DNA from: Antedon bifida
Lineage: Eukaryota > Echinodermata > Crinoidea > Comatulida > Antedonidae
DNA length: 64,000 bases
NCBI GenBank assembly: GCA_963402885.1
Contig: OY727099.1
Span: 436,501-500,500, forward strand
Direction: 5' to 3'
Shown here: positions 866 to 64,000 of the stretch, in pieces
Numbering within the stretch: position 1 is the first letter of the stretch
Layout of the letters: each line of letters starts with the position of its first letter
The notes under the pieces: model-generated
Told to the model about the DNA's origin: nothing
What the model saw: the letters and a program-made list of their open reading frames with translations, nothing else
Database searches by the model: none
Made by a program: the position numbers and the translations under genes

Positions 866-874
866 TAACACAGT

Positions 875-2014
875 GGGTGCAGGTCAAGTCGGCCCCAAAC
901 CGTCTCGGCCAAAGTCAAATCGGCCCCACGTCAAGTCGGCCCCAAGTCAACTCGGCCTCAAGTCAACTCGGCCTCAAGTCAACTCGGCCTCACGTCAACT
1001 CGGCCAAAAACTAATCGGTCAACTCGGTCACAATAAAGTATGGAACGCAAAAAGTGCTTAATATTATTATGATAATATTACTATCCACGCTTTAAAAAAA
1101 ATGAAGAAATAAGAAAAATACTCATATAAAAAATGATCTCATTGCCGATATGAATAGAAGTACCCGCGTGTTACAAAAACATGTGCAGGTACAGCATTTA
1201 AGTAAATCGAAGACGTAGGCCTAGGCCTACGTTCCACCATTTGGCCATAGAAAACATGATCGTACATCGTTTTGGCGTGCCTCGTTTTTGTCCATGATTT
1301 GCGTTTTTAAAAAAGGGGAATCCCCCGGTCAGCGAAAACACGTAGCAGTTGTAGATATCGAAATAGCTACCAAACAAAGGCGCAGGGAGGCTCAGCTACG
1401 AATTGGTTTCAGATGTTGTCGCCTAATCAAATGGATATGCATACACTGAAAAAAATCTACGCGTGATTCAACCATATAGTTAACATTAATATTTTATACC
1501 TCAATGATTCAACCAAACAATCTAATTACTACACCTATAATAGTTCATGTCCTCGCATATCGGACATTATTGAATTTTGACGCACGAACGAACATAGTTT
1601 AGCCTAGTTTAGTTATAATGGGAAAGTTTAGGCTATGCCTTTTTAAACCCCATATCAACTACATCATCATTATTGGGCCTACAATGTGTTCCTATTTATT
1701 ATCTAAATGTTCATTGTAATAAGTAATAATGATTGCTTATCATTCTTATTTTTGTAAATATTAATATTCATTAAAAGTCAGAATTATTCATAGGTAAAAA
1801 AAATGTGAAGAAATATCAATCCCCTTCCTTTGCACTTTTTGCGTTCCATACTTTAATGGGGCCGAGTTGACCGATTATTTTTTGGCCGAGTTGACGTGAG
1901 GCCGAGTTGACTTGGGGCCGAGTTGACGTGGGGCCGAGTTGACTTGGGGCCGAGTTGACCTGGGGCCGACTTGACTTTGGCCGAGACGGTTTAGGGCCGA
2001 CTTGGATCGAAATC
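875..2014. mobile_element. Foldback/TU-like transposon with long repeat-built inverted termini
   Basis: Two arms of about 183 bp, 875-1057 and 1832-2014, are inverted copies of each other. Each arm is built largely from tandem 16-bp units such as AAGTCAACTCGGCCTC with variants. The inner edge of each arm carries the same word, read GCACTTTTTGCGTTCC on the right and its complement on the left. The nine-base sequence TAACACAGT occurs directly outside both ends, at 866-874 and 2015-2023, as expected for a target-site duplication. The 775-bp interior has no long reading frame, so the element is non-autonomous. Long terminal inverted repeats made of short tandem repeats are known from sea urchin TU elements and Drosophila foldback elements; a 9-bp duplication also fits Mutator-like elements. 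The class is inferred, the structure is seen. Confidence 0.85.
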
Positions 2015-2023
2015 TAACACAGT

Positions 2024-3337: not shown

Positions 3338-28186
<24,849 letters not shown>

Positions 28187-45660: not shown

Positions 45661-47570
45661 CTATAAAATAAAGTTAGATCAATCAATTTTAAGGCATACT
45701 ATTTAGGCCTACTAACAGTAGTAGTCGTCCGATACCCTTGTTTGTTACGTGTCTGATCCCTTTCTTTTTATTTGCATACCTAACAATTGCCTTAGAATAA
45801 GATCTAACTAGGGAATATAAAGGGCGTCGTCAACAAGTGTGCACATATATCGACTGTACCCTGGCCTACCTTTTGAGTTGACTAACATTAATCGATGCAA
45901 ACACTGTTTGAGTTCACTACATTCTTTGATAAACCATATTCATTATACGTAAATTGTAGGCCTATCAGACCTATGTAGTTTTAATCATTTTCGGAAAGAC
46001 AGCATGGACTTTGTGTTAACAACATGATTCGTAATTTGTTGACATGTTAGACTACATCACTATTATAATGGTAAATCCTGAAGTTATAAACTATGATATG
46101 GTACTTAGAAATAACATGTGTATAAATTAAATGTGTAAAGTATGCATTTAAAATTTGCTATAGTTATGGTAATACATTTTTAGTTGTATACAATTGCAAA
46201 AACTATTATTAGTCAGATTCATGTTATTCTAATCACCACAATTGTGCATAATGGAACAGTCCAAAATTGCTTAGCAACGTGTTCGTCGGTTGTCGTTTGG
46301 CCGTAAGCTGTTACATATTATGAACTCACCCCTTTCACCTAATTAATTTCATATATAAATTATTAATGAATACATATCTTTTAATAAAGACCACATATAA
46401 TTACATATAGTGATATATGTAGTTTAATCGAATATATAAAAAGACAAACAAATATTTGCTATTAGAGTGTTTACTAAGCAAGTTATATAATAACATATAA
46501 GGGGTAAGCGCATTCATTTTGTCGGTAACACTACCTGACGATCAATAATGGTTTGTAGACACAGGTAGTATACTGTAAGCTAATATTATGGGTTAAGACC
46601 AGGTTTATGTCGATAGCAACAGATGATAATATTAACATGCTGGAATCAATGGAAATTGGATAAATTCTAACTCATAATTAAGGTAAGATCACTCATAATC
46701 AACCTGAATTTGAATTTATAAATTCCTAAACATTGTAGGCCTATGCCATATGCTATTTGCTGTTGAGCCTAGCGGGGTTTATGCAGCTTACTTTGAACCA
46801 GATTATATGATCTTAAACAAACGTGCAACTTGCCAATGGTTATACCCATGTGCAGGTGCGCTTATTATGGGTTCCTGGTGTATTAATTCTTTTCATTTGT
46901 TACAAAAGGTATTGTCTTGCATACAATATCCGGAATATCCTAACATCCGATCGTTAAGTCCTATTTAATAGAATGGTATAGGCCTGTAAAAAGTTACAGT
47001 TTAGTTTATAAAATGACTGTATCATTTGAGACAGCTTAAAATAAGAGCCATTGTGTCCTTCGATTGTTCAATCATTAATTCCCATACTTTCAAGCTAACT
47101 ATGCTATCATAATCATTAAATTCAGTTTAATAATGTTCAATTTGATGCTTCGCAATTTTAAAATTTGTATATCTTTGTATTTTAATTGTTTACTTATAAT
47201 TATGTTCAAGTGCAGTATATGGAGAGCCATCTCGATAGTGCTTTGCACTCATGGCAATCCTCAGGGTGCTCCACCGCTGTCTTGTTATGTATTTTTGTGC
47301 CTGAAAATTGAATAAAATAAAATAAAATAAAAAATTAATCATAAAAAAATGTCTTGCCTCCTCGACTTTCCCCGCATTTCTTTAAATAGGGCAATTCTTA
47401 TGTAAAGTATGGAAATTATTTTTATATATTTCATTTTATTTATCAATGTTATAAATGTTGCAATGGAAGCCAGATTTGATTTTTGTATCTAACCTAATCT
47501 GTATTTCTAAAAATCAAAATATTAAGTCTAATTAAATTAAATGGATTTGATGATGGCTTCAAACCCCAAT
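45661..47570. other. Intergenic region between two divergent genes
   Basis: About 1.9 kb of AT-rich sequence without a supported exon. It must contain the promoters and probably a noncoding first exon for each neighbour. An X-box-like site is at 46266-46278. Short open frames (46750-46968, 47133-47315) show no domain. Confidence 0.5.
46266..46278. promoter_or_regulatory. RFX X-box-like site between divergent genes
   Basis: ATTGCT-T-AGCAAC fits the RFX X-box consensus (RYYRYY, 1-3 bases, RRNRAC) at every constrained position. It lies about 620 bp upstream of the minus-strand ATG and 1.5 kb upstream of the plus-strand ATG. RFX factors drive cilia and sperm genes. A match to such a loose consensus is expected by chance every few kilobases, so this is only suggestive. 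Confidence 0.3.
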
Positions 47571-47764
47571 ACGTTTATTTTTTATTATAGTACGGTACAA
47601 TTACGCTATAATATTTATTAATATTTAAATAAATATTAATTTTCCATTATTTTAGGCCGTAGGCCATAGGCAACGTTTATTTTTTATTATGGCACAATTA
47701 CGCAATAATATTTATTAATATCTAATTCATATTATTTTTCTATTATTTTAGGCCATTCATCCAC
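47571..47764 (+). repeat. Tandem duplication carrying two copies of a 3' splice acceptor
   Basis: Blocks 47571-47662 and 47673-47764 are diverged copies. Each begins ACGTTTATTTTTTATTAT and ends (C/T)(C/T)ATTATTTTAGGCC. Each ends in a credible acceptor: one after 47655 and one after 47751. The second is 16 bases before the ATG of the gene at 47768. Confidence 0.75.
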
Positions 47765-47767
47765 AAG

Positions 47768-49852
47768 ATGGCTGAAAGAAGAGCTAAATACGAAGTTACG
47801 CAGATGTTACGCTATTTATCAGACGAAATACCAGTTAGTCCGCGAACTTCTCCTCGATCGCCAGACCTATCGCGCTCCGATGAAGTACTTCGAGAAAAAT
47901 ACAACGAACTAAACAATCTTATGTTATCTCATATTGCCCAAAGAAAGACTCTAGGGCATCTGTATTCATCATATGATTTAGACTTCAAGAAAGTTAGTCC
48001 TGAAAATAGCAAAACAAAACTCAATAAAAAAGAAATTCGAACATTGAAAGGACGTGCAAAACGGTTAACTGAATTTAATGATTATGATAGCAAAGTTAGC
48101 TTGAAAGTATGGGAAATACCGAGCGATTCCGAACCCGATGATAGAGATTTAGGTGAAACTAGTGAATTATGTGATGACGTCAGTGAACACACGTATAATT
48201 CGACAATAAATTCAACTGTAACAATCCACGAAGTAAACTCCGAAGGTGAAGAAATCAATTCCGACTATGAAAAAAACTCTTATGCAAAATCAAAACAGGT
48301 TTCTTTTGTGGAAAACAAAAAACTGAAAGATGACCCAATTCCAATCTTTGATCCTAACTCATTAGAAACTCTTATTTTAAAGGACATTTTACGTCATCAA
48401 AGATCAAAACCAAAGCATACTGATTCAGGAATTTCACTCAAGACAAAAACAGGGAAAAATCAATGCAGATCCAATCATAGGAAAGGTTCCCCACGCAAAA
48501 AGAAGTCTAAGACAGATCCGCCGGAAACATCTCCTAGGATAAAAACAAAAAGTGCCCTAGACAATCATCTTCTTTCCTCTTCTAATGCAGACGTCAAACG
48601 ATGGATTAGAGAAAAGAACAAATTAGCCCGAAAGAAATTAAAAGAAGAAAGGAAAAAAGAGCGAGAAGAAATGGAAAAAGAACACAATGCTGATACTGAA
48701 AGGACAGCAAGAATGATTGAGTCGGAGGAAAAGGTTAAAACGTGGGTTAACGAAAAACACAAGCAAGTATTATTGCAAAGAAAACTAAAACAGCGTGTCG
48801 AGGAGATTCAACTGCACAGCACAACTGAAACATCAGAAGAATCAGTACCACGTAACAGTCAAATTAAGGAACAATTTGAATTGAGAAAAACAGCTATCAG
48901 GCGACGTCAACGCCGTATTAGAAACCGAAAAGAAGAAGAAACAAATAGTGATAAGGCAGGAAGAAATGAAAAGGCGTTTCCTATTAAGCCAGCATCCGCA
49001 CGATTGATTCATGACGAAAAACTTCAAGCGAAAGCAGCAAAGAAGAAATACGGTGTTTCTGTTAGAGGGACATTAGATAAGGCTGCAAAACAGATGCAGA
49101 AAGAAGAAAAGGGACAAATGAATCAAGATACAAACGATTTGAATAATAACGTAAAAAAAACAATTGGAAGAACATCTCAGATAAAAAACATTGATAAGAA
49201 AATGAAACCGAAAGAGAAAAATAATAACAGTTGCTCTACACCAGACAATAATAAAAGTACTGATGATGTTGATCCCATCAACCACGTTCGGAAAACTAAT
49301 AGAATGACATACAATGCTTGGATAAATATTAAACTAGAAGGTGATAAGAAGAAAAGGCAAAAAGAATTAACAAAGAAAGTCGATCCTGATTTAGAAAGAC
49401 TTCTTCCCACCCTTTCACAAGAACGCATCCGAAGAGCAACTGATTCAAAGAAGTCTACGATGTCTCCTGAAAGAGATTTTAGAAACAAAACTAATTCTTC
49501 TTCTCGTAATCATCGCAATGAACCAGAAAACGTGTTTTCACAAAGGCCAAAATCCGCCATGACAACTTCTAAAGACAATCCAGATTATTTACCTAAACGA
49601 CCTGCTAGTGCGAAAACTAAGAAATCCGTGCTGTCGCATAACTCTTTCGAAAATGAGTTAAACGAAGTCCTGGAGGGTGAAAGACCTGAACCGCAAGGCT
49701 GTGAACTTCCCGATAATAGTCCTTGTCATGACCGGACGAAAGCAACTCGACAATTATTATTAACTGATGATCGTAAAAGTGCAACACGTTCTCTATCGAC
49801 TGACCTGGACATTTTAAACACTGAAAGTGTATTCATAACTGCTTCAAATTGA
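47768..49852 (+). CDS. Intronless 694-aa basic coiled-coil protein, possibly microtubule-associated
   Basis: One long open frame, by far the longest in the window and far beyond chance in such AT-rich DNA. The start is preceded by a TTATTTTAG acceptor, so a 5' noncoding exon is likely. The N-terminus (1-60) is Ser/Pro-rich (SPRTSPRSP). Residues ~100-200 are acidic, ~275-440 are strongly charged Lys/Arg/Glu coiled coil, and the rest is basic and low-complexity with SAR/SAM-type Ser-Ala motifs. A motif of the form VKRWIREK / VKTWVNEK / YNAWINIK occurs near residues 276, 323 and 515. Trp-containing Lys-rich repeats of this kind occur in MAP9- and CCDC181-like microtubule proteins of cilia and spindle. 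I do not see enough to assign it to either family. It has no membrane segment or enzyme motif. It is divergent from the gene at 44776-45642. Confidence 0.85.
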   Translation: MAERRAKYEVTQMLRYLSDEIPVSPRTSPRSPDLSRSDEVLREKYNELNNLMLSHIAQRKTLGHLYSSYDLDFKKVSPENSKTKLNKKEIRTLKGRAKRLTEFNDYDSKVSLKVWEIPSDSEPDDRDLGETSELCDDVSEHTYNSTINSTVTIHEVNSEGEEINSDYEKNSYAKSKQVSFVENKKLKDDPIPIFDPNSLETLILKDILRHQRSKPKHTDSGISLKTKTGKNQCRSNHRKGSPRKKKSKTDPPETSPRIKTKSALDNHLLSSSNADVKRWIREKNKLARKKLKEERKKEREEMEKEHNADTERTARMIESEEKVKTWVNEKHKQVLLQRKLKQRVEEIQLHSTTETSEESVPRNSQIKEQFELRKTAIRRRQRRIRNRKEEETNSDKAGRNEKAFPIKPASARLIHDEKLQAKAAKKKYGVSVRGTLDKAAKQMQKEEKGQMNQDTNDLNNNVKKTIGRTSQIKNIDKKMKPKEKNNNSCSTPDNNKSTDDVDPINHVRKTNRMTYNAWINIKLEGDKKKRQKELTKKVDPDLERLLPTLSQERIRRATDSKKSTMSPERDFRNKTNSSSRNHRNEPENVFSQRPKSAMTTSKDNPDYLPKRPASAKTKKSVLSHNSFENELNEVLEGERPEPQGCELPDNSPCHDRTKATRQLLLTDDRKSATRSLSTDLDILNTESVFITASN

Positions 49853-52028: not shown

Positions 52029-52362
52029 ATAGACGATCAGGTTAAAAAAAAAAGCTGGAAAAAAAGTTTCAAACTCGACTCACAGAGCAGAAGAAGGGCA
52101 AGGTTACGCCGGAAGTGTTGAAGTTTTCACCGGAAATATATTAATATAATTATATAAAAGTCATTATATAAATGACCGGAAACATTTATAATATACTTCC
52201 TGCTGTAACCTCAACACCAGTGATAGTATTTCCGATCGTTTGTATATATTAGGCCTAAATAGGTCAATTATAGTAGTATTATAAAATAATGATTATTTCT
52301 TCCGGTTACATGTATTTAATTTATAAATAAACAATGACCTTCGACAATTATACTACTTCCGG

Positions 52363-53628
52363 TGTACTTCAATGTATCTTGAGAGTAATGGTCTTTTGTG
52401 CAACGAACAATTTGGATTCAGACAAGGTAGATCATGTGCATTACAACTACTTGATGTCCTGGAGAGTTGGACTACTAACCTGGATAACCATGATAGCTTT
52501 GATTGTGTCTATTTAGACTATAAAAAGGCTTTTGATAGTGTGCCACACCAAAGGCTTCTAGTCAAATTGAAAGGTTTTGGTATTACGGGAAATCTACTAG
52601 GTTGGTTCTCTAATTATTTGTCAAATAGAACGCAACGAGTTAGCGTCAATGGTCAATTATCATCACAGGCTCCAGTATTAAGTGGAATTCCACAGGGTAG
52701 CGTTGTGGGCCCAATCTTATTTTCAATCTTCATTAACGATTTACCTGATGTTGTCGAATCTAGTATACGTTTATTTGCAGACGACACTAAGTTGTATAGA
52801 GTGGTCAATAACATTGATGATGCGGATTTATTTCAGAGAGACATTGACAGTGCTTCCCATTGGTCTAATGTTTGGCAATTGCCATTTAATGACACTAAGT
52901 GTAAGGTATTTCATTATGGTCGTGATAATCTTAAGTTCTTGTATTCAATGGCTGGTAATTTACTACATGAGGTAAAGCAGGAGAAAGATCTAGGTGTTAC
53001 CTTTGATCCTAGTTTAATCTTTAATTTGCATGTAGCGGATATCTGTAAAAGAGCTAATAAGAAACTAGGAATGATTTATAGATCTTTTAAATTCTTGAAT
53101 AAGGATGGATTTTTGAAGCTGTATAAGTCTATTGTCAGGCCAACGCTTGAATATTGTAACACTGTTTATAATCCTATTAGAAAACGAGATCAGGATGAAA
53201 TAGAGAAGGTCCAGCAAAGAGCAACAAGATTGATTCCTAGGTACCGAAATATCCCTTATGAACAACGTTTGAGAATTCTTGGTCTTCCTACTATGAGATA
53301 TCGAAGGCAGAGAGCGGATATTATCCAAGTTTTTAGGATTGTTAAGGGTTTCGATCGTATCTCGATCAACACATTTTTTGAATTTGATCTAGAATCTCGG
53401 ACCCGTGGACACACATATAAACTCAAGTTTAAAAGCTCTCTTCTTAATATTAGGAGGGACACGTTCTCCAGGAGAGTTATTCTCTTATGGAATGCTCTGC
53501 CTACGGATGTAGTTTCATGTGCTACGGTGAACTCGTTCAAAGCAAAACTTAACGTCGCATGGTCTAACCACCCGCTGAAGTTTTCACCCTATATAGAATA
53601 TGATTTTATTGCTAAGAGGGGCTTTTAA
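52363..53628 (+). CDS. C-terminal part of a non-LTR retrotransposon reverse transcriptase
   Basis: The frame is open from the element's truncated edge; the first ATG is at 52372 and leaves 418 codons. It begins inside the finger domain (FGFRQGRS) and holds the catalytic motifs of RVT_1: YLDYKKAFDSV, then LSGIPQGSVVGP, then the FADD box in RLFADDTKLYR. After the polymerase comes the thumb region and the conserved C-terminal block with LWNALP. The endonuclease domain and ORF1 are missing, so it cannot move on its own. It fits the Jockey/CR1 side of the LINE tree. Confidence 0.93.
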   Translation, partial: CTSMYLESNGLLCNEQFGFRQGRSCALQLLDVLESWTTNLDNHDSFDCVYLDYKKAFDSVPHQRLLVKLKGFGITGNLLGWFSNYLSNRTQRVSVNGQLSSQAPVLSGIPQGSVVGPILFSIFINDLPDVVESSIRLFADDTKLYRVVNNIDDADLFQRDIDSASHWSNVWQLPFNDTKCKVFHYGRDNLKFLYSMAGNLLHEVKQEKDLGVTFDPSLIFNLHVADICKRANKKLGMIYRSFKFLNKDGFLKLYKSIVRPTLEYCNTVYNPIRKRDQDEIEKVQQRATRLIPRYRNIPYEQRLRILGLPTMRYRRQRADIIQVFRIVKGFDRISINTFFEFDLESRTRGHTYKLKFKSSLLNIRRDTFSRRVILLWNALPTDVVSCATVNSFKAKLNVAWSNHPLKFSPYIEYDFIAKRGF

Positions 53629-62489: not shown

Positions 62490-63925
62490 AAATATTGACA
62501 TGCGCAATCACATACTGTGTGTTCTGTACATGTTAACTCAATACATATTTTTTCAATATTTGACCATTTTTTGAAAAAATCCCTGTACTATAGTCAGGTA
62601 CAGAGAAATTTTCGAAAATTTGCTAAATTTCGACCCTTTCATATTTTGCAATACCTATTGCGCACATCACATAGTGTGTTCTGCGCATGTTACCCTATGC
62701 ATATTTTACAGGTCGATATTTAACACATTAAAAACACACAAAAATTAGCCAAAATATTTTTATAATTCAATTATTTTGCGATGATATTGCTATACGTGCA
62801 CATATATTGCTTTGCATCAATTCTTAGAGCCATAGTAAACAGTTTTGTCGAAAAATAAAAGGGTCGAAATTTTGCATTTTTTTGAAAAAAATCCCTATAC
62901 TATAGTACAGGAATTTTTCGAAAAATGCTCAAAATATTTACTTTTTTAAATTCATATTATTGCTTTGCATTAATTCTTAGAGCCATAGTACACAGTTTTG
63001 TCGAAAAATAAAAGGGTTGAAATTTTGCACTTTTTTGAAAAAATCCCTGTACTATAGTACAGGGATTTTTTAGAAAAATGCCCAAAATATAGACTTTTTA
63101 AAATTCAATTATTTTGCGATGATATTGCTATACGTGTACATATATTGCTTTGCATCAACTTTTACAGCCATAGTAAACACTTTTGTCAAAAAATAAAAGG
63201 GTCAAAATTTTGCAATTTTTTCAAAAAATCCCTGTACTATAGTACAGGGATTTTTTAGAAAAATGCCCAAAATATAGACTTTTTAAAATTCAATTATTTT
63301 GCGATGATATTGCTATACGTGCACATATATTGCTTTGCATCAACTTTTACAGCCATAGTAAACAGTTTTGTCGAAAAATAAAAGGGTCGAAATTTTGCAA
63401 TTTTTTGAAAAAATCCCTGTACTATAGTACAGGGATTTTTTAGAAAAATGCCCAAAATATAGACTTTTTAAAATTCAATTATTTTGCAATGATATTGCTA
63501 TACGTGTACATATATTGCTTTGCATCAACTTTTACAGCCATAGTAAACACTTTTGTCGAAAAATAAAAGGGTCGAAATTTTGCAATTTTTTGAAAAAATC
63601 CCTGTACTATAGTACAGGGATTTTTTAGAAAAATGCCCAAAATATAGACTTTTTAAAATTCAATTATTTTGCGATGATATTGCTATACGTGCACATATAT
63701 TGCTTTGCATCAACTTTTACAGCCATAGTAAACAGCTTTGTCGAAAAATAAAAGGGTCGAAATTTTGCAATTTTTTGAAAAAATCACTGTACTATAGGTA
63801 CAGGAATTTTTTAGAAAAATGCCCAAAATATAGACTTTTTAAAATTCAATTATTTTGCGATGATATTGCTATACATGCACATATATTGCTTTGCATCAAC
63901 TTTTACAGCCTCAGTAAACAGTTTT
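62490..63925. repeat. 185-bp satellite array with an embedded perfect 34-bp palindrome
   Basis: From about 62760 to 63925 the sequence repeats with a 185-bp period: GCGATGATATTGCTATACGT recurs at 63116, 63301, 63486 (one change), 63671 and 63857. Each unit holds a palindrome whose left arm is AAAAAATCCCTGTACTA and whose right arm is its exact complement. Four copies are perfect, at 63038, 63223, 63408 and 63593. The outer units at about 62890 and 63778 carry mutations in it. A further diverged duplication with CATAGTGTGTTCTGCGCATG words precedes the array (62500-62720). Confidence 0.93.
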
Positions 63926-64000
63926 GTCGAAATTTTTTGGAAATGGAAAAATGGAAAAATTGCATAAATAATCACTACATGATTGCAAACTATTATTCCA

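Follow-up and report, generated by a model that had tools for sequence, protein, structure and literature searches.

A dispersed foldback-type DNA transposon family with tandem-repeat arms and unequal ends in the crinoid Antedon bifida, probably mobilised by a Mutator-like transposase

TU elements of the sea urchin Strongylocentrotus have outer inverted domains made of short tandem repeats, with 15-bp units and 8-bp target duplications; the target duplication of hAT elements is likewise usually 8 bp, and that of Galileo is 7 bp. Galileo is a foldback-like member of the P superfamily with a THAP transposase, and has THAP binding sites within its tandem repeats (PMC3688188). The Tetris paper holds that most foldbacks seem to be of Mutator type, with exceptions (PMC4079207), and a survey of Mutator-like elements (MULEs) gives target duplications of 8-11 bp (PMC6446971). 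Tm1 of root-knot nematodes is a Mutator/foldback element of the Phantom subclass, with a Phantom-type MULE in its coding copy; it is described as having asymmetric 7-bp tips outside the inverted repeat, tandem units of ~14 bp, and target duplications mostly of 9 bp, ranging from 8 to 10 (PMC3169594). Muta1 of Aedes aegypti is a MULE and type 2 foldback with a FLYWCH finger and 145-bp TIRs containing nine 12-bp units, and Muta5 has 151-bp arms containing nine 15-bp units; in yeast, the Muta1 enzyme gave 21 duplications of 8 bp and 39 of 9 bp (PMC5225508).

We describe here an element of 1140 bp with a 774-bp interior, located near the start of a 64-kb stretch of A. bifida DNA (C12:436501-500500; "the window" is this whole stretch, and positions are counted from its first letter). 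Its features, with strand in brackets, are:

866..874 (+): target site duplication, left copy TAACACAGT; 9-bp class, seen in 4/31 tip pairs
875..884 (+): left tip GGGTGCAGGT, conserved among copies, lying at or beyond the margin of the inverted repeat
883..1005 (+): left arm, 16-bp tandem units with core GTCAACTCGGCC
1006..1017 (+): 12-nt A-rich spacer breaking the array
1018..1029 (+): single extra unit beyond the spacer
1035..1057 (+): left arm inner end AAAGTATGGAACGCAAAAAGTGC
1058..1831 (+): interior, matching other copies at 71-100% where BLAST aligned
1231..1238 (+): GTTCCACC, unoccupied here; in L012, hit by another copy of the family
1832..1854 (-): right arm inner end, complement of 1035-1057
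1860..1975 (-): right arm, 16-bp tandem units with core GGCCGAGTTGAC and a 12-nt spacer at 1872-1883
2005..2014 (+): right tip GATCGAAATC, unlike the left tip
2015..2023 (+): target site duplication, right copy TAACACAGT
Family tip pair: GGGTGCAGG and GATTTCGATCC, with GTCAACTCGGCC-type arms

An earlier note, made from the letters of the window, had described inverted arms of tandem 16-bp units with TAACACAGT directly outside both ends, and this architecture is real. The two arms (875-1057 and 1832-2014) match at 165 of 183 ungapped positions, with the mismatches concentrated in the outer ~10 nt, and the stretches 885-1057 and 1832-2004 are 94% complementary over 173 nt. Tandem Repeats Finder reports a period of 16 at 904-1005 and at 1884-1975. 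With up to two mismatches allowed, the core GTCAACTCGGCC occurs 15 times in the 64-kb window, every time within the two arms; 100 shuffles gave a mean of 1.13 occurrences and a maximum of 4. Read inward, both arms have the identical order of array, 12-nt A-rich spacer, one unit and inner end AAAGTATGGAACGCAAAAAGTGC. The word TAACACAGT has no same-strand occurrence in the window other than those at 866-874 and 2015-2023, with a single copy of its complement, at 6056; from base composition, an exact 9-bp match adjoining both arms has a chance probability of ~9e-6, or 0.004 if 21x21 offsets are allowed. There is no long reading frame in the element, the longest stop-to-stop stretch being 74 aa.

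A genome search with one arm had been named beforehand as a test of the transposon reading, which a lack of other copies would have contradicted; other copies exist. Across the genome (315.6 Mb in 27 contigs), the left arm of the window element gave at least 41 matches (40 of 406 candidates scored). With up to one mismatch tolerated, there are 106 sites for the left tip GGGTGCAGGTCAAGTCGGCCC, 71 of them exact, and 83 for the right tip GATTTCGATCCAAGTCGGCCC, against zero for the reversed pattern of either tip. The family numbers about a hundred copies or more, the window element included. Starting from the 100 listed left tips of the 106, we obtained 59 left-right tip pairs no more than 20 kb apart, of which 41 span 850-1250 bp; at least one of the 59 is a mispairing caused by a nested copy, the outer copy in L012 having been joined to the end of the copy nested in it. 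A sister subfamily has the tip GGGTGCAGGTCAACTCGGCCC; its copy L036, of 797 bp with the duplication TTTAAGTT, matches the window element in the arms only. The first 20 loci were chosen by the left arm of the window element, so the constancy of left-arm length among them is biased; the left arm is shorter in L032, L034, L042 and L043/L044. In a text search for 11- and 12-mers of the unit, the matches listed (20 of 29) have unrelated-looking titles and are probably primers, which does not imply that the family is absent from print or from Repbase.

Among 31 tip pairs read, one of which (L037) has a right end that is a loose match, 18 are flanked by an exact 8-bp duplication, 4 by an exact 9-bp duplication and 9 by none. 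The nine include the outer copy in L012, a mispairing whose true right end gives an 8-bp duplication; they also include L031 and L040/L041, which have common immediate flanks and therefore look like one insertion counted twice. For the first 22 element calls (8 bp in 15, 9 bp in 3, none in 4), pairing the flanks of different copies gave 0/462 for 8 bp and 0/462 for 9 bp. Thirteen of 15 8-bp duplications have T at position 2. The 9-bp target duplication reported by the earlier note thus holds for the window copy but not as a rule for the family, in which duplications are mostly 8 bp and sometimes 9.

In L012, one copy of the family has inserted into another at GTTCCACC. Once the nested copy and one duplication are removed, 105 of 112 positions match the interior of the window element, and GTTCCACC reads through without an insert in 20 of 22 printed rows, the other two being the junction and several rows duplicating one place. 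The unoccupied site belongs to this nested sibling rather than to the window copy. Given the scattered copies with constant ends, the target duplications and the unoccupied sibling site, this is a mobile family: a non-coding DNA transposon with fixed ends and 8- or 9-bp target duplications. Indeed, the inverted tandem-repeat arms, together with many genomic copies bearing such duplications and the sibling's unoccupied site, place it in the foldback-type structural class, as had been supposed from the window.

The two ends of the element are unequal, the left tip reading GGGTGCAGGT and the right tip, read inward, GATTTCGATC, so that they disagree over the outermost ~10 bp. Excluding the 14 outermost columns, left arms are 98.8% alike and right arms 96.9% among 18 copies. 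Left and right arms are on average 94.0% identical within a copy (18 copies) and 94.0% identical between copies (306 comparisons), which means that the arms were already different when copied. Left and right ends are thus separate lines of descent, and arm identity cannot date an insertion. We rejected arm identity as a means of dating for this reason, which leaves the earlier suggestion that matching arm lengths indicate a recent insertion unsupported; in this family, insertion age is not readable from arm-to-arm identity. Nonetheless, comparison of whole copies, with gaps ignored, places the window copy at 98-99% identity to 7 of 12 other compact copies and at 92-94% to the remaining 5, which indicates a recent spread of its subgroup, and the window subfamily does look recent.

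Copies of the family hold additional DNA (~0.7 to 10 kb), often in the form of other transposons. Movement probably does not depend on the interior, which, being probably dispensable, would be free to vary and to tolerate insertions. Loci L011 and L015, on different contigs, share an insertion position within the element, and their inserts are related, with identity over 327-328 bp; there is an 8-bp duplication at L015 and none at L011. These observations suggest copying of an already loaded element to another location, although the duplication needed as proof is absent at L011. The inserts span L011:6562-7804 and L015:1443-2128; that in L011 has inverted arms of ~315-330 bp, and the 16-bp array at L011:7257-7347 (GGGACGATTCGGCCCT) sits between these arms, not within them. 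We also noted a nested element of ~4.5 kb (L020:1590-6099), with inverted arms of ACAAATGTGAAAAC-type units, within a copy of the window type, and another inverted array pair of foldback-like appearance at L013:41-418, with units of 15-17 bp (GGACAACTACCCCC). A nested element of ~10.5 kb on C8 runs from ~976 in L040 through L041 to ~100 bases before its end. It contains THAP pieces, a P2RX7_C domain and a weak MULE-like piece, the MULE-like piece and one THAP piece falling below the Pfam cut-off; it has inverted ends of its own starting TAGGCTACTG and, judged by eye, an apparent 3-bp TTG duplication in the right arm. L031 holds a shortened form of the same nested element. For capture of host gene fragments, we scanned 14 frames (seven in L040/L041, two each in L020 and L033, and one each in L015, L025 and L031) and found no nameable host gene among them; for 6 of the 14, no Pfam family was returned at the thresholds applied.

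The earlier note had anticipated that aligned copies would show flanking 8-9 bp duplications and lead to an autonomous partner encoding a Mutator-like transposase. The duplications were found, but neither the genome-wide list of PF10551 matches nor the long copies that were read yielded a partner of Mutator type bearing this arm. In the seven long tip pairs that were read (3.8-11.7 kb) we saw nested elements and no recognisable transposase partner, L032, L034 and L043/L044 having been assessed by eye. L020 contains the nested element with ACAAATGTGAAAAC-type arms, L025 a reverse transcriptase frame, L031 and L040/L041 their nested element, L032 a nested element with inverted repetitive frames (by eye), L033 a nested inverted-repeat element of ~5.5 kb (from inverted frames), and L034 and L043/L044 retroelement-like frames (by eye). 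Of the 33 PF10551 matches in the genome, not one comes within 20 kb of any of the 100 listed left tips (at most one mismatch), a comparison that misses weak pieces. Indeed, the MULE-like piece in L040 scores 24.1 bits against a cut-off of 27.6 and is absent from the PF10551 list, so weak, divergent or exon-split enzymes can be missed by this search. In the stretches read, the MULE genes L035 and L045 are not flanked by long inverted arms. The KDZ domain of Zisupton and its relatives (PF18758) had no match in the genome; the control genomes were silent too.

The same genome does contain an element of like plan that encodes an enzyme. L046:320-2810 (C10:20284519-20287009) is a 2491-bp element with a frame that has FLYWCH (1.6e-13) and MULE (1.8e-7) domains, such that a FLYWCH finger, a MULE domain and tandem-unit arms are found together in this genome in one copy, with an unrelated unit. 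As in the window element, its inverted arms (320-400 and 2721-2802) are built of 16-bp units, its tips are unequal and it has a 9-bp duplication; unlike the window element, it is coding, and its arms are only ~82 nt long with ~three units of AAAAAGCCACCCCTGT. That unit matches the window unit at 8/16, the level of shuffled sequence, and is unrelated. The duplication ACCTGTATT bounds the 2491 bp and is the longest word common to the two 60-nt flanks, with 14 of 2000 shuffles reaching 9; since L046 is a single copy, its boundaries are those given by this duplication alone.

Comparison with described elements argues for a Mutator-type affinity. Tm1 is like the window family in having asymmetric short tips beyond the inverted repeat, 8-10 bp duplications and mostly non-coding copies, and its array is followed by a 12-bp purine-rich motif and one unit, where the window element has the 12-nt A-rich spacer and one unit (PMC3169594). 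The Tm1 tip CCTACCC (inward GGGTAGG) resembles GGGTGCAGG, possibly by chance; Tm1 is unlike the window family in unit sequence, in having 9 bp as its commonest duplication and in having a known transposase-bearing copy (PMC3169594). Muta1 and Muta5 likewise have arms of short tandem units plus a terminal motif, duplications of 8 and 9 bp, and hundreds of derivative non-autonomous copies, the Muta1 derivatives having interiors that vary and arms that are often truncated (PMC5225508). They differ from the window family in that their units are 12 or 15 bp rather than 16, their autonomous copies are known, the Muta1 tip is an imperfect palindrome, and Muta1 is described as having little or no target preference (PMC5225508), whereas the window family has T at position 2 in 13/15. 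Galileo shares long arms with tandem repeats but has a THAP transposase and arms of 0.5-1.2 kb (PMC3688188). Taken together, the asymmetric tips, short tandem units and mixed 8/9-bp duplications correspond to the plan of the Mutator-type foldbacks Tm1 and Muta1/Muta5.

We propose that the window element is a 1140-bp non-autonomous cut-and-paste transposon, in ~100 copies or more, and that it is probably mobilised in trans by a MULE of Phantom/Muta1 type with a FLYWCH zinc finger. Such a transposase would attach to the arrays of 16-bp units in the two arms and draw the ends of the element together; cutting would occur at the asymmetric tips, and insertion into an 8-9 bp staggered cut. Duplications of 8 bp in 18 of 31 pairs and 9 bp in 4, with none in 9, agree with the 8-10 bp of a MULE, for which mixed lengths are allowed. 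The Mutator assignment is inferred, because we found no copy that combines this arm with a transposase; we count against it this result, the unrelated unit of L046, the T at position 2 in 13/15, and the fact that hAT duplications are also 8 bp.

It is unlikely, in our view, that the same non-autonomous element is instead driven by a hAT transposase. Eight bp is the commonest duplication, the T at position 2 in 13/15 recalls the hAT target preference, and hAT genes are present, with 39 PF05699 matches in the genome; however, a hAT enzyme would be expected to leave duplications of 8 bp only, whereas 4/31 pairs here have 9-bp duplications with the same ends, and to our knowledge arms of tandem units with asymmetric tips are not a hAT trait. 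Three PF05699 matches lie within 20 kb of a listed left tip, at 2.8, 8.8 and 17.9 kb, and none is inside a paired element; the nearest, which is the sole match within 3 kb (C8:14837427), is not part of the element but sits upstream of L031, which has its immediate flanks in common with L040/L041. Mobilisation by a P/Galileo-type THAP transposase, acting on long arms with repeated binding sites, would be in keeping with Galileo, a foldback-like element with THAP sites in tandem repeats (PMC3688188), and with the THAP pieces inside one long copy (L040/L041). The ~10.5-kb insert that bears those pieces nonetheless looks nested, being bounded by inverted ends of its own and showing, as judged by eye, an apparent 3-bp duplication, and we regard this source of transposase as distinctly unlikely. 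True membership of the sea urchin TU family, to which the earlier note had likened the element, we consider very improbable: TU elements resemble it in their 8-bp duplications and in having outer inverted domains built of short tandem repeats, but their unit is 15 bp rather than 16. A local inverted duplication of a minisatellite, which would account for the repeats themselves and nothing more, is practically excluded, and we see it as already refuted by the dispersed copies with fixed ends, the target duplications and the unoccupied site.

Three other features of the window were noted. A 52-nt inverted repeat (47076-47127 and 48067-48118) is 96% complementary, with its second arm inside an open frame of 708 aa (47726-49852) and its first arm upstream of that frame. 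A 433-aa reverse transcriptase frame (RVT_1, 5.4e-26) at 52327-53628 marks a retroelement; genome contigs scanned with this reverse transcriptase gave no confirmed match. At 62953-63932 there is a tandem array of a 185-bp unit (5.3 copies, 96% matches), the units of which contain internal inverted repeats.

The element is, then, of an ordinary kind: it is a well-delimited, non-autonomous foldback DNA transposon and most likely falls in the Phantom/Muta1 branch of the MULEs, its enzyme class being inferred. The repeat pitch in inverted arms is 16 bp in both the window family and L046, and 15-17 bp in L013:41-418, with the arms of the L020 insert, at periods of 18-41, outside this pattern. As a speculation to which we give little credence, unrelated foldback families in this genome may keep a similar pitch while the letters of their units differ wholly; a conserved oligomer of the enzyme may read the fixed spacing, with DNA-binding finger and unit sequence changing together. 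If true, this would be a fast-changing end code that separates coexisting families. Whatever the enzyme, the window element adds to the tandem-arm foldbacks a well-delimited and apparently recently active family, with ~100 copies and fixed unequal ends. With a FLYWCH-MULE of like plan in the same genome, recognition of repeat arrays by the enzyme becomes testable.
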